Origin: an uncultured Candidatus Peregrinibacteria bacterium | GTDB taxonomy: Bacteria > Patescibacteriota > Gracilibacteria > Peribacterales > Peribacteraceae | Length of the DNA stretch: 44,645 nucleotides | Assembly (NCBI GenBank): GCA_937863435.1 | Contig: CALMES010000151.1 | Span: 1-44,645 of the forward strand | Direction: 5' to 3' | Part shown: positions 20,028-35,107 of the stretch, one piece after another | Numbering within the stretch: position 1 is the first letter of the stretch | How the letters are laid out: the number at the start of each line of letters is the position of its first letter | The notes under the pieces: generated by a model | Seen by the model: the letters and a program-made list of their open reading frames with translations, nothing else | The model's database searches: none | Told to the model about the DNA's origin: nothing | Made by a program: the position numbers and the translations under genes

Positions 20028-20044
20028 TTTACGCGGCGCGGTTT

Positions 20045-20431
20045 TTAAGCTTCCACAGGTTTTTTGCGCGCCGGAGAAAACGGTACCATCTGCTTTTTCA
20101 AACCTTGTAACGCACCGGCGGTGCCGCCTGTTACTTCGCTTCGTGTCACTTTTTCGCCGAATTTCGGCACAGGGATGGGAATGAATTTTAGTACGTTTCC
20201 CAAAAGCCTCATTGCTCCTCCCGCCATGCCCAGTGTGGCGGCTTTCACTACCTTAAGTGGCAGCGATACCGTACTTTTCATCGCGTTCTTTACACTTGAG
20301 GAAATCGCCGGAATGGGGCTTTTCCCAGCAAACATTTCGACTCCGGCCATTGCCGCATCCACAGGCACATTGGCGACAGTTTTGACCGTCTCTCCGACGT
20401 TGCCTTTGATTGTTTCAAACGTTTTACCCAT
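20045..20431 (-). CDS. Small Val/Gly/Ala-rich protein of unknown function
   Basis: A 128-residue protein with amphipathic stretches (VPVDAAMAGVEMF, LPLKVVKAATLGMAGGAMRLLGNVLKFIPIP) and a basic tail (SPARKKPVEA). No signal peptide and no recognised family; the mildly hydrophobic centre could associate with membrane. The coding call is supported by an upstream TATAAT (20444-20439) whose end lies 7 nt before the ATG, implying a leaderless transcript. Confidence 0.6.
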   Translation of the reverse strand: MGKTFETIKGNVGETVKTVANVPVDAAMAGVEMFAGKSPIPAISSSVKNAMKSTVSLPLKVVKAATLGMAGGAMRLLGNVLKFIPIPVPKFGEKVTRSEVTGGTAGALQGLKKQMVPFSPARKKPVEA

Positions 20432-20438
20432 ATTCTAT

Positions 20439-20444
20439 ATTATA
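20439..20444 (-). promoter_or_regulatory. -10 TATAAT placed for a leaderless mRNA
   Basis: TATAAT on the minus strand ends 7 nt before ATG at 20431, so transcription should start at or next to the A of ATG. No convincing -35 is seen. Confidence 0.5.
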
Positions 20445-20494
20445 CAATAAATCGTATAAAATAGCTATATTCGCGACGCTCGGCATGTAGGCTT

Positions 20495-20827
20495 TCAGAC
20501 ATCAAACCCAAATATTCCAAAAAAAGATGCTGCCTGTTTTTGCAGGCGCTTAGGCTCAACTTTTCCAATTTCACCCAGAATGATTTTCTTGCTTAGCGTC
20601 ACCATTTTATCGAAGCGGATGCACGATCGGACTTTTACACCGGAACCATCGCCTGGCTGCAGAATAAGCCCTTCTTTTTCCCTTGTGACCTTTGAGGTAA
20701 TAAAACAAAGAATGACCTCATCATTCTTTGGATTATATCTAGATACAATAAGCGCCGGACGCACTTTTGCATGCGAAAGATCGCTAAATGGAAACGGCAC
20801 GAGGATAATAGAGCCAAATTCAAACAT
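20495..20827 (-). CDS. MazF/PemK-type toxin
   Basis: A 110-residue MazF/PemK fold protein, usually a ribosome-independent mRNA endonuclease. The N-terminal FGSIILVPFPFSDLSHAKVR is typical, followed by PALIVS, the ITSK strand and VRSCIRFDKMVTLSKK. ATG at 20827 overlaps the antitoxin stop codon by 8 nt; an in-frame ATG at 20845 would lengthen it by six residues. Encoded directly after a Phd-like antitoxin, it forms a standard toxin-antitoxin pair. Confidence 0.85.
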   Translation of the reverse strand: MFEFGSIILVPFPFSDLSHAKVRPALIVSRYNPKNDEVILCFITSKVTREKEGLILQPGDGSGVKVRSCIRFDKMVTLSKKIILGEIGKVEPKRLQKQAASFFGIFGFDV

Positions 20828-21062
20828 ATCTCTTCGTAAGATCATTGAGCGAATAGAGATCGGGCTCCTGCTCTAAAAATGCAAAGCTCTCGGAAGCACT
20901 TGCCATCTCTGCAATCGGAACAGTGTCTTCATCTGTTAAAGAGATGAGAAGAACATCGGCTTTCCCATGTTTTCCGAGTGCGATAGGCTTCTTTAAGTAC
21001 TTTACCTGGTTGACCAATTCACCCAATATCTTGCGACCTTCGCTGATTGAATAGACTTTCAT
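20820..21062 (-). CDS. Phd/YefM-like antitoxin
   Basis: An 80-residue antitoxin. The N-terminal MKVYSISEGRKILGELVNQV, then KKPIALGKHGKADVLLISL, fit the Phd/YefM fold that dimerises and binds DNA; the acidic C-terminus (EQEPDLYSLND) would wrap and block the toxin. ATG at 21062 is preferred to 21101 because the promoter -35 overlaps the longer form and the family begins at this Met. It overlaps the MazF-like gene by 8 nt. A palindrome in its promoter suggests the usual autoregulation. Confidence 0.82.
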   Translation of the reverse strand: MKVYSISEGRKILGELVNQVKYLKKPIALGKHGKADVLLISLTDEDTVPIAEMASASESFAFLEQEPDLYSLNDLTKRYV

Positions 21063-21072
21063 ATATGAATAA

Positions 21073-21101
21073 ATTGTACCATATGTACATTTTGTAATCA
21101 A
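21073..21101 (-). promoter_or_regulatory. Toxin-antitoxin promoter with embedded operator
   Basis: On the minus strand TTGATT (21101-21096), a 17-nt spacer, TACAAT (21078-21073). The inverted repeat TGTAC-catat-GTACA (21075-21089) sits across spacer and -10, as expected for an autoregulatory operator. The -10 ends 10 nt before the ATG, so the leader is only a few nt. Confidence 0.7.
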
Positions 21102-21106
21102 TACGA

Positions 21107-22147
21107 TTATGCCACGGGATTTGGATACTGTTCGTGAATCTCTTCGATACCCTTGAGCACATCGTCAGACAAAATCATCTCGCCCGTGTCTATGTCTTCT
21201 TTCAGCTGATCAAGATTCGACGCGCCGATAATATTACTCGTCACAAACGGCTGCATATTTACAAAAGCCAGCGACATTTGGGCGAGTGACAGACCGTGTT
21301 TTTTGGCGAGATCGGCATAGAGCTGTGTGACTTTCTGAGCCTGCGGCGTGCGGTAACGAGGGGCAAACTGCGGATGAAGAGTAAAGCGTCCGCCCTTGGG
21401 CATATTGCCGCCCAGGTAGCGTCCGCCAAGAACGCCATAGCCCAGGGGGGAATAGGCGAGCAATCCGATAGTTTCGCGCATGGAAATTTCGGCCATATTG
21501 ATGTCGTAATGACGATTGAGAAGATTGTACGGGTTCTGCACACTCACCATACGCGGAAGATTTTTCTCTTTGGCGATGCGCAAAAATTCGAGTGTCCCCC
21601 ACGATGTTTCATTGGAAAGGCCGACATATTTCACTTTGCCCGCTTTTACAACTCCGGCGAGTGCCTCGAGCGTTTCTTCGATCGGTGTTGCCTGCTCGTG
21701 GTCTGCATGAACGTATCCGCGCTGACCAAAATAGTTCACATTTCTGTCGGGCCAGTGCAGCTGATACAGATCTATTACATCCGTTTGCAAACGCTTCAGA
21801 CTTTCGTCGAGCGCCGCTTCAATATTGGCTTTGTCGAGCCGATTGTCGCCGGTACGAATATGAGTGTAACGATTGGGTCCGCCCACTTTGGACGCCAAGA
21901 CAATCTCCTTTCTTTTGCCTGTTTTTTTCAGCCATCTCCCAATAATGCACTCTGTCTCGCCGTATGTATCGGCCTGGCTTGGCACGGGATACATTTCGGC
22001 TGTGTCGATGAAATTCACCTGATTACCCACCGCGTAATCGAGCTGCGCATGCGCATCGGCTTCGTTTACCTGATGACCGTAGCTCATGGTGCCGAGACAG
22101 ATGTTACTGACCTTGAGATCGGTCGTGCTGAGAGTGGTGAATTTCAT
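21107..22147 (-). CDS. Aldo/keto reductase, Tas-like
   Basis: A 346-residue NADPH-dependent oxidoreductase of the aldo/keto reductase TIM-barrel family, closest in pattern to E. coli Tas. The catalytic tetrad is visible: Asp and Tyr in NFIDTAEMYPV, Lys in IVLASKVGGPNR, His in LYQLHWPDRN. The C-terminal cofactor region SNIIGASNLDQLKEDI is present. The start at 22147 (MKFTTLSTTDLKVS) is the family start; six upstream in-frame codons are dropped. It stands between a divergent DUF1697 gene and the TA pair. The substrate is unknown. Confidence 0.9.
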   Translation of the reverse strand: MKFTTLSTTDLKVSNICLGTMSYGHQVNEADAHAQLDYAVGNQVNFIDTAEMYPVPSQADTYGETECIIGRWLKKTGKRKEIVLASKVGGPNRYTHIRTGDNRLDKANIEAALDESLKRLQTDVIDLYQLHWPDRNVNYFGQRGYVHADHEQATPIEETLEALAGVVKAGKVKYVGLSNETSWGTLEFLRIAKEKNLPRMVSVQNPYNLLNRHYDINMAEISMRETIGLLAYSPLGYGVLGGRYLGGNMPKGGRFTLHPQFAPRYRTPQAQKVTQLYADLAKKHGLSLAQMSLAFVNMQPFVTSNIIGASNLDQLKEDIDTGEMILSDDVLKGIEEIHEQYPNPVA

Positions 22148-22253
22148 GCAGAGATCAAGAAACAAAATGGAATACAGACTCTAGACGGAACTGAGAATTT
22201 TCGGAAGTGAAGTTGAGACTTTCTCACGCGCATTTCGCTCAGTGAAATACGTG

Positions 22254-22259
22254 TACAAT
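22254..22259 (+). promoter_or_regulatory. -10 TACAAT of the DUF1697 gene
   Basis: TACAAT ends 8 nt before ATG at 22268, giving a leader of about 2 nt. No strong -35 is seen. Confidence 0.4.
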
Positions 22260-22267
22260 AGTGATGT

Positions 22268-22825
22268 ATGACACCTGTCAATAATTCAACAACCCGCTTC
22301 GTCGCCTTCCTGCGTGGCATCAATGTCGGCGGCAACAAGATGATTCCGATGGCGAAACTGAAAACAATGTTCGAGTCTCTGGGCTTTACGAATGTCAAAA
22401 CCCTGCTTGCAACCGGCAATATTCTGTTCGATGCGCCAAAATCCACACCGGAAACATTGGTGACGTTGATCGAAAAGAAAATCGAAGCAACTTTTCGTCT
22501 GCACTCTCACGCCATTGTTCGCAGCCTTGCCGACATACACGCGCTGGTTGATCGTGATCCTTTCAAGCACATATCAGTGACGCCGCATACGCGCTTATAT
22601 ATTACGTTTTTGGCAACCAAGCCGAAAAGTTCGCTCAAGATTCCCTATATGTCGCCCAATAAAGATTTTACGATTCTGAAAGTGAGCGATACCGAGATTT
22701 GCAGCGTGCTCACACTCAATCCAAGCACACGATCTGTCGATGCCATGCAGGTACTCGAGAAAGAGTACGGCAAGCACATCACGACCAGAAACTGGAATAC
22801 GGTCAAGAAAATCGCCCATTCATGA
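22268..22825 (+). CDS. DUF1697 family protein
   Basis: A 185-residue soluble protein of the DUF1697 family: the N-terminal FVAFLRGINVGGNKMIPMAK, then the TLLATGNILFDA motif (usually NVxTYIQSGNVVF) and the C-terminal RNWNTVKKIA are characteristic. The biochemical role is unknown; it is widespread in soil bacteria. It is a single gene divergent from the aldo/keto reductase, with a candidate terminator right after the stop. Confidence 0.9.
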   Translation: MTPVNNSTTRFVAFLRGINVGGNKMIPMAKLKTMFESLGFTNVKTLLATGNILFDAPKSTPETLVTLIEKKIEATFRLHSHAIVRSLADIHALVDRDPFKHISVTPHTRLYITFLATKPKSSLKIPYMSPNKDFTILKVSDTEICSVLTLNPSTRSVDAMQVLEKEYGKHITTRNWNTVKKIAHS

Positions 22826-22826
22826 T

Positions 22827-22909
22827 GCACCGTTCATGTCTGTCCAGTGCTGCATAGAGCGACTTTATGCCGCCTGCTGAGGCAGCCGGTCCGGTGCGTT
22901 GTTTTTTTC
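22827..22909 (+). terminator. Candidate intrinsic terminator after DUF1697
   Basis: GCACCG (22827-22832) pairs with CGGTGC (22892-22897), enclosing smaller GC hairpins, and is followed by GTTGTTTTTTT. The long outer loop makes the exact structure uncertain. Confidence 0.5.
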
Positions 22910-22948
22910 TAAAGTTGATTCACAATAATTATTTATCTTTGATAAGCG

Positions 22949-22993
22949 AATTCATCTTTTATGAATTGTCATCCGGCAAAACATCCATAGAAT
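22949..22993 (+). promoter_or_regulatory. Promoter and operator of the tail-like gene trio
   Basis: TTGTCA (22966-22971), a 16-nt spacer, TAGAAT (22988-22993); predicted start near 23000, giving a 22-nt leader. The perfect 7-bp inverted repeat AATTCAT-ctttt-ATGAATT (22949-22967) overlaps the -35, a good position for a repressor. Confidence 0.6.
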
Positions 22994-23021
22994 GGGTTCA
23001 ACCTTTCCTTAACCGCATTTT

Positions 23022-23402
23022 ATGGCACGACTTCCCGTATCCGGCAGCGACAGTGGCACATGGGGTGATGTCCTCAACACGTTCCTGCAAGTTGGTCACG
23101 CGGCAACCGGTGAAAACATCGGAGCTGTCGTCGAAGCAACAAAAAGCAGTAACTATACTCTTGCAGCAGCCGACAGCGGCAAGCGATTTGTCGCCACGGC
23201 ATCCATGACTTTCTCCCTTCCGACAATCGGCACACTCGGTAACGGCTTTGAAGTGGAGATTGTCAATGATTCCGGCACCACTGTCACCATCGACGGACCT
23301 GGCGCCACCAACGTGTCTCTCGACAGCGGGGATGTTGCCTGTGTCCTGGAAACAAATTCCAAGCAACGGGTTGTGAAGGGGCCGAGCACGGTCGTGTCTT
23401 AA
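23022..23402 (+). CDS. Phage-tail-like small structural protein
   Basis: A 126-residue protein. The N-terminus MARLPVSGSDSGTWGDVLNT is a pattern seen before phage tail-fibre-type domains and in many CPR surface proteins. Residues about 45-115 resemble a tail-fibre beta unit (NYTLAAADSGKRFVATAS, then FEVEIVNDSGTTVTIDGPG). No Sec signal is present, as in virion proteins. It is first of three genes with 17-nt and 6-nt gaps behind a dedicated promoter. No capsid, terminase or portal gene is nearby, so the island may be domesticated. Confidence 0.6.
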   Translation: MARLPVSGSDSGTWGDVLNTFLQVGHAATGENIGAVVEATKSSNYTLAAADSGKRFVATASMTFSLPTIGTLGNGFEVEIVNDSGTTVTIDGPGATNVSLDSGDVACVLETNSKQRVVKGPSTVVS

Positions 23403-23419
23403 ATCTCCTCCATCGACAT

Positions 23420-24127
23420 ATGCGTCTTCCAGTAGCCACACTAGCGGCATCTACCGGTCCACTCGTGAACTTTCGCGCAACGGGCAGCTTGTTTCAGGAT
23501 TCCTCCCGTACAACAGCCGCCACTGTCAATAACAACCCTGTGGGCAGCTGGCAGAATGACAGCGGCGATAATTACAGGATGACACAAAGTACTTCGGGCA
23601 GCCGCCCACTCTTGCAGACGGCGCTGCCAAGTATTCTTTTTGACGGCACGGATGATTATCTGAGCACCGCGAATACCATAGCCGATACCGTCGGCTCTGC
23701 CGTCATCACTTTTAAAACGGGATCAACGGCTTTTGCCACCCGCGGCGTGCAGGTGCTTCTTTCGGCCGCCGATACCGGTACTGCGAACAACTGGTTTGAA
23801 ATCGGCATTACGGCAGCCGGTCTTGTGTATGTGGAATCCAATGCCGGCGGCACCAAGCACACGGTCACCGGTGTCACGACTCTGTCTGTTTCCACCACCT
23901 ACCTGCTTGCCGTTATTCATGACGGCACCGACTATTACATCAGCCTGAGTGGCGCCGAAGAGAATCCTCTGACCATCACGAACATCGGCACGTTCGCCTG
24001 GTTTGGCGATGTATCGGGCGTCGATAATCTGGTTCTTGGCGGCACCGTGACTTCGGCCGGACTCGTGCGGCCGTTTCAGGGCGAAATACTGGAAGCGTCG
24101 CTCTACTCCTACGACATCACTACGTAA
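23420..24127 (+). CDS. LamG/concanavalin A-like beta-sandwich protein
   Basis: A 235-residue protein whose layout fits a LamG/ConA-like lectin fold: LPSILFDGTDDYLSTAN near residue 75, ITFKTGS, WFEIGITAAGLVYVESNAGG, LLAVIHDGTDYYISL and the C-terminal GEILEASLYSYDIT. Such domains bind glycans or decorate tail and surface proteins. No signal peptide. It is second in the tail-like trio, 6 nt before the next gene. Confidence 0.65.
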   Translation: MRLPVATLAASTGPLVNFRATGSLFQDSSRTTAATVNNNPVGSWQNDSGDNYRMTQSTSGSRPLLQTALPSILFDGTDDYLSTANTIADTVGSAVITFKTGSTAFATRGVQVLLSAADTGTANNWFEIGITAAGLVYVESNAGGTKHTVTGVTTLSVSTTYLLAVIHDGTDYYISLSGAEENPLTITNIGTFAWFGDVSGVDNLVLGGTVTSAGLVRPFQGEILEASLYSYDITT

Positions 24128-24133
24128 GTTATT

Positions 24134-26323
24134 ATGGCTGCCATTACCTCTGCTCAGACTGGGAACTGGTCATCTACCTCCACATGGACAGGGGGGGTTG
24201 TTCCGGGAAACGGCGACACGATCACTATCGCTGCCGGACATACCATAACAGTTGCAGACGGCGCGGGAACAGTGACAATTGGCCCATCGTATTTAGGCGT
24301 ACCGGCAGCGCCGTCATATTCAGGAAGTACGGCTGTGACCACAGTTCCGTGGTCCAGCGGCGGAGTCAATATTGCCATAGCTGTCATAGACAGCGGGGGG
24401 AAAGAATCCATGCTTTCAGCAAACCAGCAACAGTCATTCACGAGCGGTGTAAGCAAGCCGCGTCTTACTATGCCTTCCCTGCCATCGGGAGCAAGCTCTT
24501 TTTCGGTGTACATGGATAACGGATCCAATGGAACAAAGCGGTTGTATGCCTCTGGAGTAGCAGGCGGCGCTACCGTTGACCTGACCAGTGCCAACTGGAT
24601 CACGGGCACCAACGATTACAATACAGCAGCTGCAGCGCCTCAGCATGCCATTGCCATTACAATAGCCAACACCGGAAAACTTGTTGTCGGGGCATCATCG
24701 CCCTCCAGTCCGCCGACACTTGTTGTACGCGGCTGCATACTCAGCCAGCAAACAAACGGCTCGCGCACCGCTGGCTTTTATCCGCTTACTGTCAATCCTG
24801 GTGCCATACTGGAATTTGACTCAAGCCAGGCAAGCAGCCCGACCAGCCAGTCTTATGTCTTTGCCGCCAGCGGCTATAACCAATACAACAATTATCTGCT
24901 CTTCAATGGCTCTGCCAGCAACCGTGCAACCGTGCGCTCCAATGCAAGCGGAGGTTACGGACGCATCAGCATCAACGGCATGACAGGGAACATGCAAGTA
25001 ACGGCTCAGTATACAGATTTTATTCGCCTGGGAGACGCTACGTACCCCGCTATCGACGTTTCACTGAATGTGACCGGACATTCAACATCGATTACCTACT
25101 GCACTTTTACTTCCTGCGGAAGTTTTTCGATGTATGCAGGAGGAGCGATAACCTCCACAGGTACATTTATCTTTAATGACAATACATTTGCTTCGACGAC
25201 TGACACCCGATCACTTAGAGTGAGAGCCTCAAACAACCTTTCCAGTGGCACACGCGAAATAAAGCGTAATTATTTTGATGCAGCGGTAAACGACCCTTCT
25301 TTTGGCGGCTCTATCGGCGGAGTTACCGTTCAGTTCAATATTTTCGCTAGCGATATTTATATGGATACTGCACAGATGTATGCGGTTTTTTCGTATAATG
25401 TCGTTCGACGTATTCCGTCAAACTGGAATGCAATGGGTGTTGCGGGAGATATTGCAAATTGTTACTGGCTGATGGATGGGAATGTGTACAATCCGAAAGG
25501 ATTTGGCTTGCCCGATCGCGACACAGTCATTGACGGCGTCATCTTGCAATGCACAGGATCCTCCACAGCACAAGACGGTGACGGCATTATTGCAACCGCC
25601 TATTCAAGATACTACACCGTCAAACACTGTCTCGTGCTGCCCCGATCCGGCGACAGTGCCCAGTCTTCGTGCACATTGCTCACAACAACCGGAAATGCGA
25701 GAATTACAGACTGTCTGCACAATACCTTTATGGGCTCCCCAGCCTTTGAACATGGCGTACAGCTCAACGAAACACTTGAATCCGCTATCGGCTCTTTGCC
25801 GCTGTATCGCGACAATGTCTACTGGGATACCTCAGCACGCGGCAATCATTTCAATACCGCAACATCGGGCAAAAACCCGCCGAATGACAATATCATCACT
25901 CCGACAGGCGTGACCAATAATTGCGCTTACAATGCTTCAACCTACAGCAATGTGGGCAAAACATCACATGGAACGTATTATGGCGCACCTACGACAGGCA
26001 GTACGCCGGGCACAGGCGACGTGAATGTTAATCCCGGATTTGTGGATTCCACTCGAAATTTTGAAGGTTTTGCCACAACATTCAGCGACACGGCATCTGT
26101 CACCAATACTCTCATCCGGCTGAAAGAAGACCCAGCCAACCGCATCCCCGCACTTCTCACATGGGTACGTGCCGGATTCTCACCCACAAATTCTCTTGTC
26201 CGAAATGCCGCCCACGACACAGGTGTTATCGGTGCATGCAACTACGCAAAATCCACCCGCTCACTCACGAAGCTGACGGCTTTGCGCAGCACTATCAGCA
26301 CACGATACAGCGTCAGTGTGTGA
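24134..26323 (+). CDS. Large repetitive beta-helix-like surface or tail protein
   Basis: A 729-residue protein. It opens with SAQTGNWSSTSTWTGGVVPG and GDTITIAAGHTITVADGAGT, a motif at the start of many beta-helix surface proteins. After an Ig-like/fibronectin-like stretch (about 50-155), residues about 170-600 alternate short strands and Asn/Gly/Ser turns (for example FIFNDNTFAS and REIKRNYFDAA) as in right-handed parallel beta-helices of tailspikes and pectate-lyase-like enzymes. No catalytic residues can be assigned. No signal peptide. It closes the tail-like trio. Confidence 0.65.
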   Translation: MAAITSAQTGNWSSTSTWTGGVVPGNGDTITIAAGHTITVADGAGTVTIGPSYLGVPAAPSYSGSTAVTTVPWSSGGVNIAIAVIDSGGKESMLSANQQQSFTSGVSKPRLTMPSLPSGASSFSVYMDNGSNGTKRLYASGVAGGATVDLTSANWITGTNDYNTAAAAPQHAIAITIANTGKLVVGASSPSSPPTLVVRGCILSQQTNGSRTAGFYPLTVNPGAILEFDSSQASSPTSQSYVFAASGYNQYNNYLLFNGSASNRATVRSNASGGYGRISINGMTGNMQVTAQYTDFIRLGDATYPAIDVSLNVTGHSTSITYCTFTSCGSFSMYAGGAITSTGTFIFNDNTFASTTDTRSLRVRASNNLSSGTREIKRNYFDAAVNDPSFGGSIGGVTVQFNIFASDIYMDTAQMYAVFSYNVVRRIPSNWNAMGVAGDIANCYWLMDGNVYNPKGFGLPDRDTVIDGVILQCTGSSTAQDGDGIIATAYSRYYTVKHCLVLPRSGDSAQSSCTLLTTTGNARITDCLHNTFMGSPAFEHGVQLNETLESAIGSLPLYRDNVYWDTSARGNHFNTATSGKNPPNDNIITPTGVTNNCAYNASTYSNVGKTSHGTYYGAPTTGSTPGTGDVNVNPGFVDSTRNFEGFATTFSDTASVTNTLIRLKEDPANRIPALLTWVRAGFSPTNSLVRNAAHDTGVIGACNYAKSTRSLTKLTALRSTISTRYSVSV

Positions 26324-26431
26324 GAAGCGTCCCCGTCGGTCAGTTACGAATATTCACTGCATTTTTCTTCGCTTATTGATTTGTAAGGACTATTGTCTTT
26401 CATATTGATTATTCCTTTCACCTCTTCTCGT

Positions 26432-27019
26432 ATGGACACTCTCAGAATCGCCGTCATTATCGGCAGCACGCGCCCCGCTCGTTTTGGCGACAAGCCGGCA
26501 AAATGGATAGCGGCCGAAGCCAAGAAATTGGAAAGTGTGGAAGTAGAGTTACTGGATCTTGTGGATTATCCCATGCCGTTTTTTGAGGAACCGATGGGAC
26601 CGTCTCAGTTGGGGAAAAAATACTCCAATGATGTGGTGAAGAAGTGGTCGGCCAAGATCGATGCAGCCGATGCATTCATTATCGTGACACCCGAATACAA
26701 TCACAGCACCTCCGGTGTTTTGAAGAATGCTCTCGACCATCTGTTTCCGGAGTGGAACAACAAGCCTGTCGGTTTTGTGAGCTATGGCGGAGTGGGGGGC
26801 GCCCGCGCGGTTGAGCATTTGCGCCAGATTTCGGTAGAACTGGAAATGGCACCTATCCGCAATGCGGTGCACATTCAAGGCAGCATTCTGTTTCCGATCA
26901 TTATGGGGAAAGCTCAGTGGAATACTGAGACAGAAGCGCATTTGAAAGACAACGCCGATAAAATGCTCAGCCAGCTTCTATGGTGGGCAAAGGCACTGAA
27001 GGCGGCACGCATGAAATAG
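26432..27019 (+). CDS. NADPH-dependent FMN reductase
   Basis: A 195-residue flavodoxin-fold reductase (NADPH-dependent FMN/quinone reductase family). It has the FMN phosphate loop GSTRPARFGDKPAKW near the start, TPEYNHSTSGVLKNALDHL and SYGGVGGARAVEHLR. It reduces flavin or quinones with NADPH in the cytosol. ATG at 26432 is preferred over 26393; its leader is TTCACCTCTTCTCGT directly before ATG. The 108-nt gap before it shows no clear terminator for the tail-like trio. Confidence 0.92.
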   Translation: MDTLRIAVIIGSTRPARFGDKPAKWIAAEAKKLESVEVELLDLVDYPMPFFEEPMGPSQLGKKYSNDVVKKWSAKIDAADAFIIVTPEYNHSTSGVLKNALDHLFPEWNNKPVGFVSYGGVGGARAVEHLRQISVELEMAPIRNAVHIQGSILFPIIMGKAQWNTETEAHLKDNADKMLSQLLWWAKALKAARMK

Positions 27020-27066
27020 TATGCGCTGCCAGACTCATTTTTTTCTGCCTGTTGATTGTTTCAAAG

Positions 27067-27109
27067 TGCTCTCTAGAGCATTGACAAAATTTCTTCCTTT
27101 GCGTATTAC
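27067..27109 (+). promoter_or_regulatory. Consensus promoter with adjoining palindrome (candidate RNA gene)
   Basis: TTGACA (27081-27086), a 17-nt spacer, TATTAC (27104-27109). The 14-bp palindrome TGCTCT-CT-AGAGCA (27067-27080) abuts the -35. No credible ORF start follows within 400 nt, so the promoter points to a noncoding transcript starting near 27116. Confidence 0.65.
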
Positions 27110-27115
27110 ACCCTG

Positions 27116-27557
27116 CTGAAAAGGACCTGCTCTTTTTCACCATCGATGACAATGCGGATTCAGCAGTGTGCGGAGAATGTCTCTTCAGGCTGCTGAATCC
27201 GTCTGACTTGGCCATACCAAGGGCGGAAGAGGCCGCTTTTACGTGGAGACTCATGATGTGGTCTCACGTGGTTATGTGCTATAAGCACTACCGACGAGAC
27301 TGCCTGGCTTTCTTGAGCTTTTGCAGCTGCATGTCATTCCAGTTCCGCAGGATGACACCGCACGCGCAAGGATGCTACCTCTGCTTGCTGGTTCTGTTTT
27401 TTGTCAGCATCGCCTCGCTTGAGATCAGCTGGCGCAGACACGGCGACATGCATCAGGAGCGGACCAGGCGGCCGCTTCATGATTGAAACGCCGGCGTCAT
27501 CGAAACCAGCCGCGCTTTGGTGCGGCACCCCACCCTCTCACACCGAGAGGGTTTTTT
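27116..27557 (+). ncRNA. Candidate ~440-nt structured noncoding RNA (or long riboswitch-like leader)
   Basis: Between a consensus promoter and an intrinsic terminator the sequence is packed with helices. Stem 1: CGGATTCAGCAG (27155-27166) with CTGCTGAATCCG (27190-27201), 12 perfect pairs, with a GAGA/TCTC mini-stem in its loop. Stem 2: CTTGG/CCAAG (27207-27221). Stem 3: GCGG/CCGC (27223-27236). Stem 4: ACGTGGAGAC/GTCTCACGT (27241-27269, one bulge). Stem 5: GTGCT/AGCAC (27276-27288). Stem 6: TGTCAT..CC/GG..ATGACA (27332-27357). Stem 7: GATGCT/AGCATC (27371-27411). TCGATGAC (27143-27150) and GTCATCGA (27496-27503) are exact complements and could close the whole domain. Motifs of tmRNA, RNase P, SRP and 6S RNA are absent. 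Because the terminator ends 9 nt before the next ATG, a cis-acting attenuator is an alternative. Confidence 0.55.
27533..27557 (+). terminator. Intrinsic terminator
   Basis: CCCTCTC-acac-CGAGAGGG hairpin followed by six T (27552-27557). It lies immediately before the start of the next gene, so it ends the candidate RNA or attenuates that gene. Confidence 0.8.
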
Positions 27558-27565
27558 ACTGTAGA

Positions 27566-28003
27566 ATGAGGACTATGGCCATGTTCGTGCATCTGACACT
27601 GGAGAAAAATACTGCTCGCATCAAGCGAGGCGGGATTGCGAAAGCCGCAACGGGCATAGAGGAGGTAAAAGGAGTGTATGCCATGCCGCTTACTGCCGAC
27701 TTTAACGCCAGCTTCCAATGGACGAGGGAGCTGAAACGAGGCAAAAACGGAAAGATTGTGGCTGTGCAGTTTCGCATTCCAGATGATGAGCTGGTCCTCT
27801 TCGGCCACTATCATCACCGCCACGATGCCATGAAAAGCGCCGAGGCTGTCGGCCTGTTCATGAAACTGCCGGACGCTCGCGGCTACGAAGTGATTATCCC
27901 CCGCCGTATCGCGGCAGACGAAATTCACAGTATCAGGCCCGTGCCACAGACAACCGGCTGGCGATACTTTCCCGGATCAAACGGAACGAAGCCGCAATTA
28001 TAA
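27566..28003 (+). CDS. Conserved protein of unknown function, possible ART-like fold
   Basis: A 145-residue soluble protein. I do not recognise a named family. MFVHLTLEKNTARIKRGGI followed by GVYAMP resembles the opening HxT...GI...GVY pattern of some ADP-ribosyltransferase-like folds, and FGHYHHRHDAMKSAEA, RGYEVIIPRRI and TTGWRYFPG look like conserved blocks. The ART link is only a resemblance. In-frame ATGs at 27566, 27575 and 27581 are all possible. A terminator hairpin ends 9 nt upstream, so its expression may depend on read-through from the structured leader. Confidence 0.65.
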   Translation: MRTMAMFVHLTLEKNTARIKRGGIAKAATGIEEVKGVYAMPLTADFNASFQWTRELKRGKNGKIVAVQFRIPDDELVLFGHYHHRHDAMKSAEAVGLFMKLPDARGYEVIIPRRIAADEIHSIRPVPQTTGWRYFPGSNGTKPQL

Positions 28004-28010
28004 GACGCAC

Positions 28011-28057
28011 AAAAAAGCCGCCGCTCCCCTGCGGTTTGCAGGGGCACTTGCGGCGGC
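28011..28057 (-). terminator. Intrinsic terminator of the 79-aa gene
   Basis: GCCGCCGC (28017-28024) pairs with GCGGCGGC (28050-28057), with an inner CCCCTGC/GCAGGGG stem. On the minus strand the hairpin is followed by TTTTTT (28016-28011). It lies directly after the 79-aa gene. Confidence 0.85.
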
Positions 28058-28069
28058 GGATACCAGTTT

Positions 28070-28309
28070 TCAGGCCTCGAAGAGCTGGCCGAGCTCATCA
28101 GCGGTAAGGTCTGGCGGATTGTCATTGTAGGCAGCGGTGAAGAACGGATCATGGACCCGATACGTTCGAACGCCTCCTTCGTCGTTAATTGCGCCGTTTG
28201 CAACGCACAGCTCAATAACATCTGAAGGCTCAAGTGTAGCGTAGTCCAGAGGACTGATTTCGACAACGGCAACCTCAGATCCATCGACGATCCTCTTTTC
28301 GACCTGCAT
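28070..28309 (-). CDS. Small acidic protein of unknown function
   Basis: A 79-residue acidic protein (SPLDYATLEPSDVIEL, NDNPPDLTADELGQL) with no membrane segment and no recognised family. It is one of the few genes here with a strong Shine-Dalgarno: GGAGGGAG lies about 4 nt before the ATG. With a strong intrinsic terminator just downstream, this is a compact, well-expressed single gene. A role cannot be given. Confidence 0.72.
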   Translation of the reverse strand: MQVEKRIVDGSEVAVVEISPLDYATLEPSDVIELCVANGAINDEGGVRTYRVHDPFFTAAYNDNPPDLTADELGQLFEA

Positions 28310-28445
28310 CGAACTCCCTCCGATGAACTGTGAAAGAGCGTCAACTGGTTTTATTATTATGCATCGAAAAAATTTTGTGTCAAAAACAATATATTTCGTT
28401 CGGTATTAATCCCATCAGAAAGCCAAAATCTGATGAATCGAATTC

Positions 28446-29903
28446 TTACACTCCATGCACCACGTGTGCGCCCATATCCGTGTTCTTGGAAATCTTGATC
28501 ATGGTTGCCCCAAGGATACCAGCGATAATTGCCGAACACGCACCGACAAGGAACGCGGTGTGATACCCGCCGTTTAAAGCAATCAACTCGCCTGATCCGG
28601 CAGCAACCATACTGGTATAACGGGCTGCGGCGAGGCTTGCCAGAACCGCAAGACCGAGTGCTCCACCCATCATGAACGCAGTATTCACGATGCCGGAAGC
28701 AAGACCGGATTCGTGCGCCGGCACATCGCTCATGGCTGCAAGTAGCATGGGGTTAAACGCGATGCCGCCACCAATGCCGAGCAAGACCATTCCCGGCAAA
28801 ACGTCCATAAGGAAATGTCCATCGATCGGCGAACGAGCAAACCAGGCAAGACCGCAGCCGGCAATAAGCAAGCCGACGCCAAGTGGCTTTCGGATACCGA
28901 ATTTCATGACGATTTTGGCAGAGAGTCCAAGTGAGAAGGTCGCCATAATCAGGTTGGCAGGCAGGAAGGACAAACCGACTTGTAGTGGCGAGTAGCCAAG
29001 AACCAATTGAAGATAGAGTGCCGAAATGAAGAACCACGCAAACATGGATGCGGCCCACAGTACGCCGACAATATTGGCGACGACAACGTTGCGCAGACGG
29101 AATAATTTGAGCGGAACGAGCGGTGAACGAATAGAACTTTCAATCCATAGAAATATGCCCATCAGCACAACCGAGAGTGCCAGAAGACCGAGTGTGAGCC
29201 CAGAGAGCCAGCCATTCTGATTGCCGTTAACAATGGCATAGACCGCCAGCATCATGGATGCCGTGACGGTAATTGCTCCGCCAAAATCCAAGTGTCCCGG
29301 CGCTTTTACGTGTGCCTTTGGCAACAAGATGATCGACAAAATAACAACGAGTACGCCGACTGGAATATTGACGAGGAAAATCCAGTGCCAGTTCAGAGAA
29401 CCGGTAAGAAGGCCGCCAAGCAGCACGCCAATGCTTCCGCCGCCAGCCGAGACAAAGCCATAGACACCCATCGCTTTGGCGCGTTCAGCTGGATCCGTAA
29501 ACAAATTCATGGTGAGTGAGAGTGCGACTGCCGAGACGATCGCACCGCCAAGACCTTGCACGCCACGGGCGACGATGAGCATCCATTGCGCAGTCGCAAG
29601 TCCGCACAAAAGAGACGCAGCGGTAAAAGAGACAATGCCGATCAAAAATAATCTGCGATGACCAAACAGATCACCAAGCCTGCCACCAAGGAGCAGGAAG
29701 CCGCCGAATGTCAGCAGGTATGCATTCACCACCCACGCAAGCGACGAGTCCGAAAACCCAAGATCTGTCTGAATGGAAGGCAACGCGACGTTCACGATGG
29801 TTGTATCGAGCACGATCATGAGTGAACCGAGACAGAGCACCATCAACGCCAGCCAGCGGCCGTCGCGAGAAGCGGATTTCTGGGGATGAGAATGTTTCGG
29901 CAT
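28446..29903 (-). CDS. MFS drug exporter, DHA2 (EmrB/QacA-like, 14 helices)
   Basis: A 485-residue polytopic protein of about 14 helices. It carries LDTTIVNVALPSIQ in helix 1 (motif D1 of DHA2), GRLGDLFGHRRLFLIG (motif A) and GVQGLGGAIVSAVALSL (motif C, the antiporter motif). Such proteins export drugs or lipophilic compounds using the proton gradient. A basic N-terminus (MPKHSHPQKSASRDGR) precedes helix 1. It is a single gene with an extended -10 promoter. No adjacent membrane-fusion partner (EmrA type), as expected for a single-membrane envelope. Confidence 0.93.
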   Translation of the reverse strand: MPKHSHPQKSASRDGRWLALMVLCLGSLMIVLDTTIVNVALPSIQTDLGFSDSSLAWVVNAYLLTFGGFLLLGGRLGDLFGHRRLFLIGIVSFTAASLLCGLATAQWMLIVARGVQGLGGAIVSAVALSLTMNLFTDPAERAKAMGVYGFVSAGGGSIGVLLGGLLTGSLNWHWIFLVNIPVGVLVVILSIILLPKAHVKAPGHLDFGGAITVTASMMLAVYAIVNGNQNGWLSGLTLGLLALSVVLMGIFLWIESSIRSPLVPLKLFRLRNVVVANIVGVLWAASMFAWFFISALYLQLVLGYSPLQVGLSFLPANLIMATFSLGLSAKIVMKFGIRKPLGVGLLIAGCGLAWFARSPIDGHFLMDVLPGMVLLGIGGGIAFNPMLLAAMSDVPAHESGLASGIVNTAFMMGGALGLAVLASLAAARYTSMVAAGSGELIALNGGYHTAFLVGACSAIIAGILGATMIKISKNTDMGAHVVHGV

Positions 29904-29932
29904 GAGTCTGGTAGAGGAAAAAATGAGTGATG

Positions 29933-29941
29933 AGTATAGCA
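29933..29941 (-). promoter_or_regulatory. Extended -10 promoter of the MFS gene
   Basis: TGCTATACT on the minus strand (-10 TATACT at 29938-29933) gives a leader of about 23 nt, pyrimidine-rich (TTTTTTCCTCT). The same TGCTATACT occurs before the gene at 43122. Confidence 0.55.
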
Positions 29942-30003
29942 GAGAAAATCCGTACGTGGGAGCGACTTATCCCTCTCTTTAAAGAATGAATTGATGATTC
30001 GAT

Positions 30004-30447
30004 CTATTTTGTTGCAAGCTCTGCCTCCAGTTTATCCAGATTCTCCTCATTTCCAGGAATGACAAATGATTTAACCTTCTCGCATTCTTCGACGGTATCG
30101 TGCACCATCTGCCAGATAATTTTTGTGCTGTCGCCGATAGCCTCGAATGTGACAATAGCGCGGAACGGATGCATCGGTTTTTGATGGTCAAACACGATAC
30201 GCTCAGGTTTTTGCAGCTCCACAAAGACACTCTCGTTCTCGAACTGAAGATCATTCGGTCCATGCATGGTAAAGCGCCATAGGCCGCCAGCAACAGGATT
30301 GAACTCGTGGAAGGTATTGGTAAATCCTTTCGGCCCCCACCAGCGCGCGAGCTTCTCGCCCGTTGTCCACGCCTGCCACACTTTCTCGCGCGGCGCATGG
30401 ATGATACGAGTGGTAACAATTGTCCGTGATGATGGATCGGCTGTCAT
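30004..30447 (-). CDS. SRPBCC/AHSA1-type protein, copy 5 of the array
   Basis: A 147-residue START-like (AHSA1) domain protein, last of five tandem paralogues. Diagnostic features are the N-terminal IIHAPREKVWQAWTTGEKLARWWGPKGF and the long C-terminal helix NEENLDKLEAELA. The fold has a hydrophobic cavity for a small ligand; no ligand is known for this clade. It is separated by 71 nt from copy 4. Confidence 0.9.
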   Translation of the reverse strand: MTADPSSRTIVTTRIIHAPREKVWQAWTTGEKLARWWGPKGFTNTFHEFNPVAGGLWRFTMHGPNDLQFENESVFVELQKPERIVFDHQKPMHPFRAIVTFEAIGDSTKIIWQMVHDTVEECEKVKSFVIPGNEENLDKLEAELATK

Positions 30448-30518
30448 AAACGATGAGGAGAAATAATTTGTATCCGCAGCGCAGGTTCCGCAACCTCGCC
30501 TACGAATGCTCTCTATTC

Positions 30519-31052
30519 TTACTTCGACGCTTCGGCCAGGCGCTTGATATCGGCCAATCCTTTCTCAAACTGTCCGCCGATCATCTTGTCCATATTCATG
30601 AACAGACCAAATACTTTGCCCATGAAGCTGTTGCAGCCATACATTGCCTGCGTGACGATGACATTATTTCCTTCCTGCTTGAACGTGAATTCCGTCGTGT
30701 TGTGACCAGGCATCGGCTTTAGGAACACCAGATCAATTTTGATGAGTTCATTGGGTTTGCTCTCGAGAATTTCCATGTGACCGGAACCGACATTCTTGTT
30801 GCCTTCCCACGCATACTTGGCACCAACACCCGACTGTGCACCTGTAATGGTTCGCTTGGTATTCGGGTCGACTTTCTCCCATGGCGACCACGCTTCCCAC
30901 TTGTGAAAATCGTTCACGAGGGCAAACGCAGCGGCGGCCGGAGCATTGATAGTAATAGAGCGTTCGTAGCGAAACGTTGGTTTGCGCAGAGCAATAACGA
31001 CGAGAAGAATGACGATGATCGCGACAACAGCAATGAGGACAGGAACAAACAT
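30519..31052 (-). CDS. Membrane-anchored SRPBCC (polyketide cyclase-like), copy 4
   Basis: A 177-residue protein. Residues 1-24 are one strong membrane helix (VLIAVVAIIVILLVVIAL); the rest is an SRPBCC domain starting YERSITINAPAAAAFALVND, then WEAWSPWEKVDPN, typical of the polyketide cyclase/dehydrase-like branch. It is the only anchored member of the array, so it probably acts at the membrane. The leader is pyrimidine-rich (TTTTTCCTTCTCCC before ATG). Confidence 0.9.
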   Translation of the reverse strand: MFVPVLIAVVAIIVILLVVIALRKPTFRYERSITINAPAAAAFALVNDFHKWEAWSPWEKVDPNTKRTITGAQSGVGAKYAWEGNKNVGSGHMEILESKPNELIKIDLVFLKPMPGHNTTEFTFKQEGNNVIVTQAMYGCNSFMGKVFGLFMNMDKMIGGQFEKGLADIKRLAEASK

Positions 31053-31093
31053 GGGAGAAGGAAAAAGAATAATTGAGTGCTAGCGTAGAGCAA

Positions 31094-31552
31094 TTAGTTC
31101 GCTGTCAAAAGAGTAGCTAGCTTGTCGAACGATCCGCTCCAGCCCTCTTTCTGACCTTCGAGTGCCATATGCGCCGGGCCGATATCGGCGAGCACATCGG
31201 CCTTCATGGTGATTTTGGTTTGACCATCGATCTCTTCGAAGGTGACGGTATTGCGAACCTCCAATTGCGGTTTGCCGTTTTCATCTTCCAGTGCACCTGA
31301 TCGAAAGACTAATTTGCTTGGCGGATCAATCTCTTCATACGTCGCACTCATCGGGTAACGATTGCCTTGCGGATCTTGCATCTCGATACGCATTTTTCCG
31401 CCCACGCGAAGATCCACTTCGCAGACCGGATTGGTGAACATGGCGGGACCAAACCATTTGGCTAGTTCGACCGGGTTTGTCCATGCTTTCCAGACGATTG
31501 AGCGGGGTACCGCGAACATGCGAGTGAGAACGAGATCTTTCGGGTGAGTCAT
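31094..31552 (-). CDS. SRPBCC/AHSA1-type protein, copy 3
   Basis: A 152-residue soluble AHSA1-type START-like protein: LTRMFAVPRSIVWKAWTNPV, KWFGPAMFTNPVCEVDLRVG, then the C-terminal helix GWSGSFDKLATLL. It lies 60 nt from copy 2 and 41 nt from copy 4. Function beyond small-ligand binding is unknown. Confidence 0.9.
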   Translation of the reverse strand: MTHPKDLVLTRMFAVPRSIVWKAWTNPVELAKWFGPAMFTNPVCEVDLRVGGKMRIEMQDPQGNRYPMSATYEEIDPPSKLVFRSGALEDENGKPQLEVRNTVTFEEIDGQTKITMKADVLADIGPAHMALEGQKEGWSGSFDKLATLLTAN

Positions 31553-31612
31553 TGTTAGATGAGTAAATAAATAATACGAGTTTTATCTTTTTAATAAGGC
31601 TATTTCATTGAA

Positions 31613-32095
31613 CTACTTTTGTATAATTTCTCCCATTTTGTCGAACATCTCATTCCAGCCGTCACCGGTCATATCCTTCATTTTTCCGGCTGGCATGCCG
31701 CTATGCGTGAGGGTCATTTTGGTCCCCTGTCCATCATCCTCAAAAACAACTGTGACGATCAAATCTTTTGGGAAATCAGCTGGCATTCCATAGGTATCGG
31801 CCGATACGATATTGCCGTCTTTATCCGCAAAATTATCGGCATAGACCAGCTTTTCCATTGGCACTACTTCTTTGAACGTGCCTGTGCCCCATACTTCTTT
31901 TCCATCCGGCATTCTCATGCAAAACAGAAGCTTGCCCCCGACTTTCACATCGATAGTAACAGAGGGAGTGGTGCAATCTTTCGGCGACCACCATTTCTTT
32001 AGCTGCTCAGGGTCCGTCCACGCTTTCCACACAGCCGCGCGCGGAGCGTCGAAGTGGCGAACGACGACGAGATCTTGAGATGCGCTATCAGTCAT
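31613..32095 (-). CDS. SRPBCC/AHSA1-type protein, copy 2
   Basis: A 160-residue soluble AHSA1-type protein: VVRHFDAPRAAVWKAWTDPEQ, KKWWSPKDCTTPSVTIDVKV, and the final helix GWNEMFDKMGEII. The in-frame extension to 32182 overlaps the end of copy 1 and is not family-like, so ATG at 32095 is used (32101 is also possible). It lies 25 nt after copy 1. Confidence 0.88.
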   Translation of the reverse strand: MTDSASQDLVVVRHFDAPRAAVWKAWTDPEQLKKWWSPKDCTTPSVTIDVKVGGKLLFCMRMPDGKEVWGTGTFKEVVPMEKLVYADNFADKDGNIVSADTYGMPADFPKDLIVTVVFEDDGQGTKMTLTHSGMPAGKMKDMTGDGWNEMFDKMGEIIQK

Positions 32096-32120
32096 AAACA
32101 TGAGAGAAATAAATAGAGAA

Positions 32121-32567
32121 TTAGTGCGAGAGTTGAAGGCTGAGCTTGTCGAAGCACTCACTCCAACCGCCTTCGTGACCATCGCGTGAGCCTTTGGATG
32201 TAAACCCTGTCTGCGTGAAGATCATTTCTGTCTTTGCACCCTGATCGATCAATTCTACGGTCACGAGTGTTTCATCATCGTGGCCGCCGTCATCTTCCTG
32301 CTCCCAGGCATGCGTAAACACGAGCTTCTTCGGCTCATCGATCTCTTTGTAGACGCCGACAACGGTTCCTTCGAACTGCGCGGACTTCATGGTGCTGCGG
32401 AATTTTCCGCCGACTTTCAGCTCGCCTTCGCTGAAGATAATTTCAAATCCATTCGGACATGACCACTTCCGTAGCATGGTGTCGTCGGTCCATGCCTTCC
32501 ACACGAGTGCGCGTGGAGCATTGAATGTCCGCGTGATGGTGAGTGAGAGTGGTTTACTTTTTGGCAT
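32121..32567 (-). CDS. SRPBCC/AHSA1-type protein, copy 1
   Basis: A 148-residue soluble AHSA1-type protein: ITRTFNAPRALVWKAWTDDT, KWSCPNGFEIIFSEGELKVG and the final GWSECFDKLSLQLSH. Its start overlaps the arsR 3' end by 14 nt, so regulator and SRPBCC are translationally coupled, a common ArsR-AHSA1 pairing. Near the 3' end TGCTTCGACAAGCTCAGC resembles the dispersed CTTCGA repeat, but the encoded FDKL is a normal family feature. Confidence 0.9.
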   Translation of the reverse strand: MPKSKPLSLTITRTFNAPRALVWKAWTDDTMLRKWSCPNGFEIIFSEGELKVGGKFRSTMKSAQFEGTVVGVYKEIDEPKKLVFTHAWEQEDDGGHDDETLVTVELIDQGAKTEMIFTQTGFTSKGSRDGHEGGWSECFDKLSLQLSH

Positions 32568-32898
32568 CGTCTTGGGGGAGAGTGGCTAAATATTTTTCGA
32601 GGGCGTCAAACCGATCGTTCCAGAGTTTTTCGTAATCCTGTAAGTACTTGGCTGCGTCTTTGATGGCCGGCGGCGACAGTTGAATGAGGTGCTCTTTTCC
32701 TTTCTTGCGCTTGATGATGAGCTTGGCCTTCTCCAGAATTTTGAGATGCTTGGAGATAGCTGCCAGCGTGACGTTATATGACCTGGCGATCTCGCCTACT
32801 GATAGCTCTTCCGTGGCTCCGCGCCGCAGAATGTCGCGGCGGATAGGATGTGCGAGTGAGCCGAAGATGAGATCGAGATCCACACTATATTCAACCAT
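32554..32898 (-). CDS. ArsR-family winged-helix repressor
   Basis: A 114-residue ArsR/SmtB-type regulator: LAHPIRRDILRRGATEE, recognition helix region YNVTLAAISKHLKILEKAKL, and a beta-wing with KRKKGKEHLIQL. There are no Cys residues, so the classical metal site of ArsR/SmtB is absent; such AHSA1-linked members probably respond to something other than metals. It heads the five-gene SRPBCC array and overlaps copy 1. A palindrome across its own start codon suggests autoregulation. Confidence 0.93.
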   Translation of the reverse strand: MVEYSVDLDLIFGSLAHPIRRDILRRGATEELSVGEIARSYNVTLAAISKHLKILEKAKLIIKRKKGKEHLIQLSPPAIKDAAKYLQDYEKLWNDRFDALEKYLATLPQDDAKK

Positions 32899-32935
32899 TT
32901 GGTTAAATGTTATTCTACTTGAAGAGGGGAGTCAA
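32890..32935 (-). promoter_or_regulatory. arsR promoter and operator spanning the start codon
   Basis: On the minus strand TTGACT (32935-32930), a 17-nt spacer, TAACAT (32912-32907). The -10 ends 8 nt before ATG, so the leader is about 2 nt. An 18-bp imperfect palindrome with arms AACCA/TGGTT (32890-32907) covers the start codon and initial transcribed region, a good ArsR operator candidate. Confidence 0.6.
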
Positions 32936-32976
32936 GAAAATAAAAGTCACCTCAAAAAATCCTACAATCTCCAGTA

Positions 32977-32994
32977 GCGGGCGTCCCCGCCCGC
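32977..32994. repeat. GC-rich REP-like palindrome
   Basis: GCGGGCG-tccc-CGCCCGC forms a 7-bp stem with a 4-nt loop. It opens a cluster of palindromes between arsR and the TfoX-N gene (32899-33140); no gene is seen in that gap. Confidence 0.6.
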
Positions 32995-33023
32995 GGAGGT
33001 TTTCGCTAGTTTTAAGAGCCGGG

Positions 33024-33043
33024 CGCAGGTAGATACCTGCTCC
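33024..33043 (-). repeat. REP-like palindrome, copy 2
   Basis: Exact reverse complement of the 20-mer at 6208-6227 (arms GCAGGTA/TACCTGC). Confidence 0.75.
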
Positions 33044-33074
33044 CCAATATCTTTGCTCTTAAAAATCATATAAG

Positions 33075-33094
33075 GGAGCGGATATCTACATGCA
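33075..33094 (+). repeat. REP-like palindrome, degenerate copy 3
   Basis: GGAGCGGATATCTACATGCA keeps most positions of the 6208-6227 element. It lies in the same cluster as copy 2 and in opposite orientation to it. Confidence 0.5.
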
Positions 33095-33140
33095 GATGTT
33101 TATTGTGTGCGCCGCGCCCACGAAGAGGCGCTCTAGGTAT

Positions 33141-33488
33141 TCATTTCTTTCTCTTGATTTTTGGAACCTTGGCTTTTGACTTTTTCCCCTTTACCTCCCC
33201 CGCCGTTATCCGAATCAACTCACACAAAAAATCCCGGTCTTCCCATTTGTCTTCCTCAATCAAAAAATACATTTTACTGCCCGGGTACGCTGGTGCTTCG
33301 GTTACGTCGCCGATGAACTTCCGCCCGGCATCGGTTGGTTTTACAAATAACCGGTCATCGCAGATGAACGCCACAACCTTGTCGTTGCAGTACAGCGCAT
33401 ACTCGCCGAACATCCTGCGGCTGCGCATGGTGCCTGCTGCAGAGAGCTGATCAACCAGAAAGTCGGCGGTGGATTGCTTGGAGGCCAT
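33141..33488 (-). CDS. TfoX N-terminal domain protein
   Basis: A 115-residue protein with the TfoX/Sxy N-terminal domain: VDQLSAAGTMRSRRMFGEYALYC, then FICDDRLFVKPTDAGR and PGSKMYFLIEE. A Lys-rich tail ends the protein (KGKKSKAKVPKIKRKK). The C-terminal TfoX domain of Sxy is absent, as in many stand-alone members whose function is unknown; a competence role cannot be assumed. It is divergent from the gene at 33590. Confidence 0.9.
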   Translation of the reverse strand: MASKQSTADFLVDQLSAAGTMRSRRMFGEYALYCNDKVVAFICDDRLFVKPTDAGRKFIGDVTEAPAYPGSKMYFLIEEDKWEDRDFLCELIRITAGEVKGKKSKAKVPKIKRKK

Positions 33489-33555
33489 AGAAGTAGACGA
33501 ATAATCAAATATTGAATCTGAGTCACTATAACGCAGTTTATGAGGGATAAGATTA

Positions 33556-33583
33556 TTGACAGTAAATCTATATATTTTATAGT
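33556..33583 (+). promoter_or_regulatory. Near-consensus leaderless promoter
   Basis: TTGACA (33556-33561), a 16-nt spacer, TATAGT (33578-33583). Exactly six nt separate the -10 from ATG at 33590, so the expected start is the A of ATG. Confidence 0.75.
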
Positions 33584-33589
33584 GTCCAT

Positions 33590-34282
33590 ATGACCAACTT
33601 ACACATTGGCGCGGATTTACCAGGTTTCACTGATTCATCCATAGACAGAGCTGCTCATCTCATACTTGATAACGTATCGGATGCTATTTATTTTCAGCTG
33701 CATATCCAATACGGACTAAGGTGTGCGCTTCAATCAATTCTTAAGCGCACTGCATTAAGTCAGGCAAATAATGGAATAGATGCACTTATGGAAAGAGAAC
33801 TGAAACGTCAGACTTCTCTTATAAAAGGATTTCTTCAAACTATTCGTACGGATTATCATAAAGAAAGAAAAGATTGTGATATAGATTTTCCGCTTTTTTT
33901 GGAAGATAGTGCGGTTGAATATGCAGTTGGTTGTATGCAAAAAAAATTAGGACTGCATGAGGCGATTATTGATCTTCCTATTAACGGACGGACTATTGTG
34001 GATTCAATCCGTGATTCTTTCAGTGAACGTATGGATGTGTATTCATTAGTCATGAAACATAAAGAGCAATATGAGAACATCCGACCGAAGAAAGCGCGGC
34101 CTCCGAAAAATGGCAGGCCTGAAAAAATAGCAAATACGCAAGAACCAATACGAAGTATGGCGGCATTGAATAGAGCTATTCCGACAACGGCAAAAACCCG
34201 AATTGAAGACGGTAATTTATACATTCACGAACTTCTGATGCGCCCACTCTCCGAAGGTCGTATTCGCGGCGTCAAACTGTAA
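33590..34282 (+). CDS. Unknown protein with a leaderless promoter
   Basis: A 230-residue protein of no recognised family. The first half is helical (RAAHLILDNVSDAIYFQLHI, then ALMERELKRQTSLIKGFLQT). A basic low-complexity linker follows (RPKKARPPKNGRPEK, about 165-180), then a short C-terminal segment ending MRPLSEGRIRGVKL. No signal peptide or membrane helix. The 5' half is AT-rich and differs from neighbouring codon use, suggesting separate origin. Its promoter is among the strongest in the window. The basic linker could bind nucleic acid, but this is a guess. Confidence 0.75.
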   Translation: MTNLHIGADLPGFTDSSIDRAAHLILDNVSDAIYFQLHIQYGLRCALQSILKRTALSQANNGIDALMERELKRQTSLIKGFLQTIRTDYHKERKDCDIDFPLFLEDSAVEYAVGCMQKKLGLHEAIIDLPINGRTIVDSIRDSFSERMDVYSLVMKHKEQYENIRPKKARPPKNGRPEKIANTQEPIRSMAALNRAIPTTAKTRIEDGNLYIHELLMRPLSEGRIRGVKL

Positions 34283-34288
34283 ATCCTG

Positions 34289-34783: not shown

Positions 34784-34784
34784 A

Positions 34785-35075: not shown

Positions 35076-35107
35076 ACGAAACAGTATACCACTGCCTTGA
35101 CACCTTT

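Follow-up and report, generated by a model that had tools for sequence, protein, structure and literature searches.

Long intergenic structured RNAs are known from bacteria and include ROOL, GOLLD and OLE (PMC12286853) as well as a long non-coding RNA (lncRNA) of Lactobacillus salivarius that is species-restricted and ~520 nt in length, with no function established (PMC5643018). Non-coding RNA candidates from the GC-IGR pipeline are likewise long intergenic regions that contain stems and have a GC content above that of their surroundings, and they are judged by cross-genome similarity and covariation (PMC11109978). In the aapA3 and hok mRNAs, a long-distance interaction between the 5' and 3' ends makes the full-length mRNA translationally inert (PMC6733600).

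Here, we analyzed a stretch of 44,645 nucleotides from an uncultured Candidatus Peregrinibacteria bacterium of the Peribacteraceae (contig CALMES010000151.1 of assembly GCA_937863435.1; hereafter, the window), in which a preliminary description had proposed a novel ~440-nt structured RNA running from its own promoter to its own terminator. The candidate RNA segment (~27116-27557, ~440 nt, plus strand) lies between a gene of the FMN-reductase family (26432-27019; Pfam FMN_red) and a gene for a conserved hypothetical protein (27575-28003, plus strand). Similarly to the L. salivarius lncRNA and to ROOL, GOLLD and OLE, the candidate would be a long intergenic structured RNA; unlike these, it has no Rfam match above a gathering score and no sequence family, is known from sequence alone, and has an interior that is not clearly ordered. 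With the GC-IGR candidates it shares a long intergenic location, a GC content above the surroundings and stems, but it has neither the cross-genome similarity nor the covariation by which those are judged. Finally, it resembles the hok and aapA3 mRNAs in a long-range helix between the 5' and 3' parts, putative here, and in a small hydrophobic ORF with a masked start, but differs in that toxin homology is lacking, the coding signal is weak and no antisense RNA promoter is seen.

Results

A predicted promoter and an intrinsic terminator bound the segment

As the preliminary description had stated, both boxes and the 17-nt spacer of a sigma70-type promoter, TTGACA-17-TATTAC, can be read directly from the plus strand at 27081-27109 (-35 at 27081-27086, -10 at 27104-27109). 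The -10 is imperfect (TATTAC), and because the consensus promoter scan requires a final T in the -10, this promoter is missing from its list. When the 102 bp upstream were dinucleotide-shuffled, only 1.3% of the shuffled sequences contained a promoter match of at least 10 of 12 positions. Transcription is predicted from the promoter sequence to start at ~27116-27117, i.e. 6-7 nt beyond the -10; the base of a 5' hairpin (27117-27139) coincides with the predicted start position, and the GC content rises at the same place, being 38% over 27020-27110 and 55% over 27111-27557. The latter value exceeds that of the other intergenic gaps listed for the window (30-53%). Elsewhere in the window, the contig end (1-1136; 1.1 kb) has a GC content of only 30%, compared with 50% for the window, and contains no ORF of at least 75 codons.

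At the other end, the hairpin plus six T that had been described was found on the plus strand at 27532-27557, as an intrinsic terminator with an 8-pair stem (27532-27552) followed by TTTTTT. Similar terminators follow other genes in G152 and G314, two genomes from the class. Thus, at the level of sequence, the fold is bounded by its own promoter and terminator, as expected for a free-standing RNA gene. Between the FMN-reductase stop codon (27019) and the promoter, no terminator-like hairpin is listed on the plus strand.

The -35 is adjoined by an inverted repeat, TGCTCT-CT-AGAGCA (27067-27080, plus strand, read directly), a possible operator. The repeat is present where a 14-bp palindrome had been reported, but it really consists of two 6-nt arms and a 2-nt centre; similarly, the promoter is present, but the suggestion that it is regulated was based on this one short inverted repeat. 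The 12-mer GCTCTCTAGAGC (27068-27079) has a single copy in the genome analyzed and a single copy in the congeneric sister genome G001 (L006:3055-3066), there in another intergenic region and in the opposite orientation, ~800 bp 5' of the orthologue of the downstream gene, in a syntenic neighbourhood common to both genomes. By our own estimate, the chance of finding the exact 12-mer in that 6.5-kb stretch is roughly 1 in 1000. The flanks of the two copies have no similarity that would back homology. Separately, a hairpin of the form CCCTCTCCC...GGGAGAGGG (~68 bp, 79%), which is possibly a REP-like repeat, is intergenic in both genomes, at 15107-15173 and at L006:2974-3041.

The segment folds more stably than expected by chance, mainly through hairpin P2 and the 3' end

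The predicted fold of 27116-27560 has a free energy of -189 kcal/mol compared with -152.6 ± 5.9 for shuffled sequences (z -6.2), with 0 of 100 shuffles as good; the reverse strand has a z of -3.3. Among 100 tiled 440-nt pieces, both strands included, the segment was the most extreme, lying 37 kcal/mol below its shuffles (next, 26), and its plus-strand advantage over its own shuffles ranked second of the 100, at about two standard deviations.

The 5' hairpin has nine pairs with a mean pair probability of 0.96 and a z of -3.2 on the plus and -0.7 on the minus strand. It is followed by hairpin P2 (27154-27202, plus strand; 21 pairs with an inner mini-stem), in which the reported stem of 12 perfect pairs with a nested mini-stem could be recognized as CGGATTCAGCAG/CTGCTGAATCCG plus the inner stem; P2 has a mean pair probability of 0.97, is the fourth strongest 50-nt hairpin of the window, and has nearly the same z on both strands (-7.3 on the plus, -6.7 on the minus strand). 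Toward the 3' end, a hairpin at 27441-27493 with an apical stem at 27456-27478 has outer and apical stem probabilities of 0.87-0.90 (z -4.0 for 27439-27495), and the 3' end (27503-27557; z -5.0) contains a 7-pair GC hairpin with a four-base loop (27509-27526; mean pair probability 1.00) ahead of the terminator stem (probability 0.98). The interior between these elements (27203-27438) is a weak middle domain with small hairpins at 27207-27221 and 27276-27288 and alternative stems at 27229-27269; here, 27203-27297 has a z of -2.4, and the fold of 27298-27440 is not better than chance (z -0.6 relative to shuffles).

If P2 and the 3' end are removed, the remaining 27203-27495 is near chance and has no strand preference (z -1.4 on the plus and -1.3 on the minus strand). 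Because this remainder has a near-equal z on the two strands, most of the plus-strand advantage can be traced to the terminator end. The excess stability sits mainly in P2 and the 3' end. An exact 8-bp complement between 27143-27150 and 27496-27503 on the plus strand had been proposed to close the domain; the model gives this pairing a probability of 0.98, but it is not significant, since 18% of shuffles likewise contain a perfect 8-bp complement separated by more than 250 nt. Therefore, of the RNA originally proposed, the elements, the stability of the whole segment and the lack of an Rfam match stand, but a closed domain beyond chance does not: we accept that there are real hairpins between promoter and terminator and do not regard the modeled closed multibranch domain as proven.

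The candidate matches neither known RNA families nor other genomes

We took a covariance-model score at or above the gathering score of a family as the criterion for Rfam membership. With the models of Rfam 15, there were 0 matches at the gathering score in the window, and this includes tmRNA, RNase P, SRP, 6S, ROOL, GOLLD, OLE and riboswitches. Scanned permissively, 26950-28100 yielded five matches (E 0.027 to 6.3), all far below the gathering scores, the best being Hrs12-like and located within the downstream gene on the minus strand. ARAGORN detected neither a tRNA nor a tmRNA in the window, and the tmRNA of this genome is on another contig (G000:C105:2126-2525). These results agree with the earlier reading that signatures of tmRNA, RNase P, SRP and 6S RNA are lacking.

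In blastn searches of 74 family genomes, which are all those of the order, the element matched only itself, apart from a 21-nt exact match in G008 that lies antisense within a 682-codon ORF and that we attribute to chance. Among 353 genomes of the class, we found the element itself and, in G152 and G314, the terminator lookalikes only; among 380 genomes of the phylum, there was no homologue. A covariance model of 27140-27310, built from the single sequence, also matched only itself in the 353 class genomes. Phage and plasmid collections gave no match to the element, and exact patterns found nothing in viral contigs except one unrelated P2-like inverted repeat in a contig with no further similarity. 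The sensitivity of these searches is lowered by strict filtering, by the shortness of the queries and by models built from a single sequence, and a diverged homologue could escape them. A conserved structured RNA would be recognized by homologues with covarying pairs, and no homologue was found in the genomes searched. The preliminary description had named a lack of conservation in relatives as evidence against its proposal, and within the sampled genomes this is what we observe; judged by these sequence searches, the element appears to be lineage-specific.

The segment is missing from the syntenic place in a sister genome

The sister genome G001 is collinear with the window, with gaps, over 19446-35229. 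At the syntenic place, it retains 26917-27006 (78%; ~90 bp from the end of the FMN-reductase gene) and 27573-27972 (80%; the downstream gene) and has 52 bp instead of ~567. The segment missing from G001 is bordered in the window by T-runs at 27037-27043 and 27552-27557; these could have mediated a deletion in G001, or the segment could have been gained, and two genomes cannot decide between these possibilities. The best FMN-reductase orthologue found elsewhere in the family, in G045, is 78% identical at the DNA level over the length of the gene; a convergent gene follows it within a few bases, and there is no element. Because the downstream orthologue in G001 and the FMN-reductase orthologue in G045 both occur without it, the element is tied to neither neighbour.

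Other differences between the two genomes were observed along the collinear region. At L006:3730-3840 in G001, just the last ~30 codons of the FMN-reductase gene are left, as in a deletion scar. Blocks of ~4.1 kb (22810-26917) and ~5.2 kb (27972-33143) are present in the window and missing from G001, the latter containing, besides an MFS efflux gene, clustered AHSA1/polyketide-cyclase-like genes. Also, ~640 bp at 20468-21106 are missing from the sister, in which the flanking genes directly adjoin; in the window, two small ORFs on the minus strand of this stretch (20495-20845 and 20820-21101) resemble, by eye, a toxin-antitoxin cassette.

As the main alternative, we considered that the region may be a lineage-specific intergenic insert without function, or else extend the FMN-reductase mRNA as a long 3' UTR, with one strong inverted repeat present by chance and a terminator that serves the upstream gene, and we regard this explanation as possible although not probable. 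It would account for the absence of a homologue from every genome searched, for the short syntenic spacer in the sister, for the chance-level interior, and for the roughly equal strength of P2 on both strands, as for an inverted repeat in DNA; moreover, no earlier plus-strand terminator is listed, so the one ending at 27557 could also end the FMN-reductase transcript. It does not, however, readily explain why stable hairpins lie at both predicted ends with a promoter just 5' of the first, why there is a step in GC content, and why the segment has the most stable fold of the window, and a conserved 3' UTR is specifically contradicted by G045, in which another gene lies 3' of the FMN-reductase orthologue and the region is missing.

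The segment contains no credible gene

The preliminary description had noted no credible gene in the segment, and indeed the segment has no coding signal or a very weak one. The longest candidate is an ORF of 77 codons with a hydrophobic segment (27253-27486, plus strand; 106 codons if read from a GTG at 27166), which is probably no gene. Its gene-likeness is -0.08 compared with 0.17-0.42 for the 18 window genes, i.e. below all of them; 27166-27486 has little synonymous-codon signal; and its length is unremarkable, being reached in 7% of shuffles. No frame, read-through frames included, gave a family match, and a coding gene was rejected on this basis.

If this ORF were nevertheless translated, the transcript could be a structured mRNA that encodes a small membrane peptide and is silenced by its own fold, similarly to type I toxins of the hok/aapA kind, a reading that we consider very unlikely. 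Consistent with it, the putative 5'-3' closing helix encloses the ORF, a GGAG 7 nt 5' of an ATG at 27256 falls within alternative stems, and the hydrophobic segment (mean Kyte-Doolittle score of 2.2 across 19 residues) outscores 99.7% of shuffles, 0.3% being as strong, in a test that was picked only after the sequence had been seen. On the other hand, a U-rich stretch can by itself yield hydrophobic codons, Shine-Dalgarno-like sites are infrequent before window genes (3 of 29), and the composition, judged by eye, is unusually Cys-rich. In addition to the low gene-likeness and weak synonymous-codon signal, no relatives above noise were found in 348 class genomes, and none in plasmids, phages or viral contigs, with no significant Pfam or PHROG match; a consensus scan, which is a weak test, found no minus-strand promoter in 27116-27557.

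The downstream gene is present without the candidate RNA in a sister genome

The orthologue in G001 (80% identical, same Met) places the start of the downstream gene at 27575 (MAMFVHL), and not at 27566 as assumed previously; accordingly, the terminator ends 17 nt, rather than 9 nt, before the ATG. The protein has a 37% identical relative in a Chloroflexi MAG and no significant Pfam match. It has a relative in the sister and is missing from the other 72 family genomes; the gene was possibly acquired horizontally. A -10-like box, TAGAAT (27562-27567, plus strand), lies 7 nt before this ATG and is overlapped by the ATG at 27566, and in G001 TATAGT lies 6 nt before the same ATG. In the window, -10-like boxes at leaderless distance precede 8 of 29 genes compared with 2-7 at control distances, which is not convincing, and we use the box as a two-species observation only.

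The proposal had left open a free RNA or a riboswitch-like leader; a free RNA fits all measurements, whereas an attenuator or riboswitch leader of the 27575 gene with the terminator (27532-27557) as expression platform, to which we give the least credence, has in its favour the closeness of the terminator on the same strand but is disfavoured by the lack of a strong antiterminator pairing in the model, by the -10-like boxes in both species and, as what seems from the sequence comparison to be the stronger argument, by the persistence of the gene in G001 with 52 bp upstream replacing the RNA, so that the conserved association expected of a cis-acting leader is not observed.

Discussion

We suggest that ~27116-27557 is a free-standing, lineage-specific structured RNA gene, an assignment that we hold to be evenly poised. 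In this candidate RNA gene, RNA polymerase would start at ~27116 at the TTGACA/TATTAC promoter, and the resulting ~440-nt transcript would stop at the terminator hairpin. The end hairpins (27117-27139 and 27509-27552) would shield the transcript, and P2 and the 27441-27493 hairpin are proposed to be its main ordered elements. The product would most likely be a stable trans-acting or protein-binding RNA and not a leader of the next gene, which would have its own start signals. We infer transcription, transcript stability and action in trans from these features. A broader reading appears doubtful to us, namely that the element, restricted to a single species-level lineage of bacteria with small genomes, represents a class of large structured RNAs not described before, or else a hok/aapA-type mRNA in which the RNA silences production of a small membrane peptide.

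If transcribed, the candidate would be, as in L. salivarius, a large structured RNA restricted to one species, here from a lineage of small-genome bacteria, and it would be an RNA of the kind that conservation-based discovery pipelines overlook by design.
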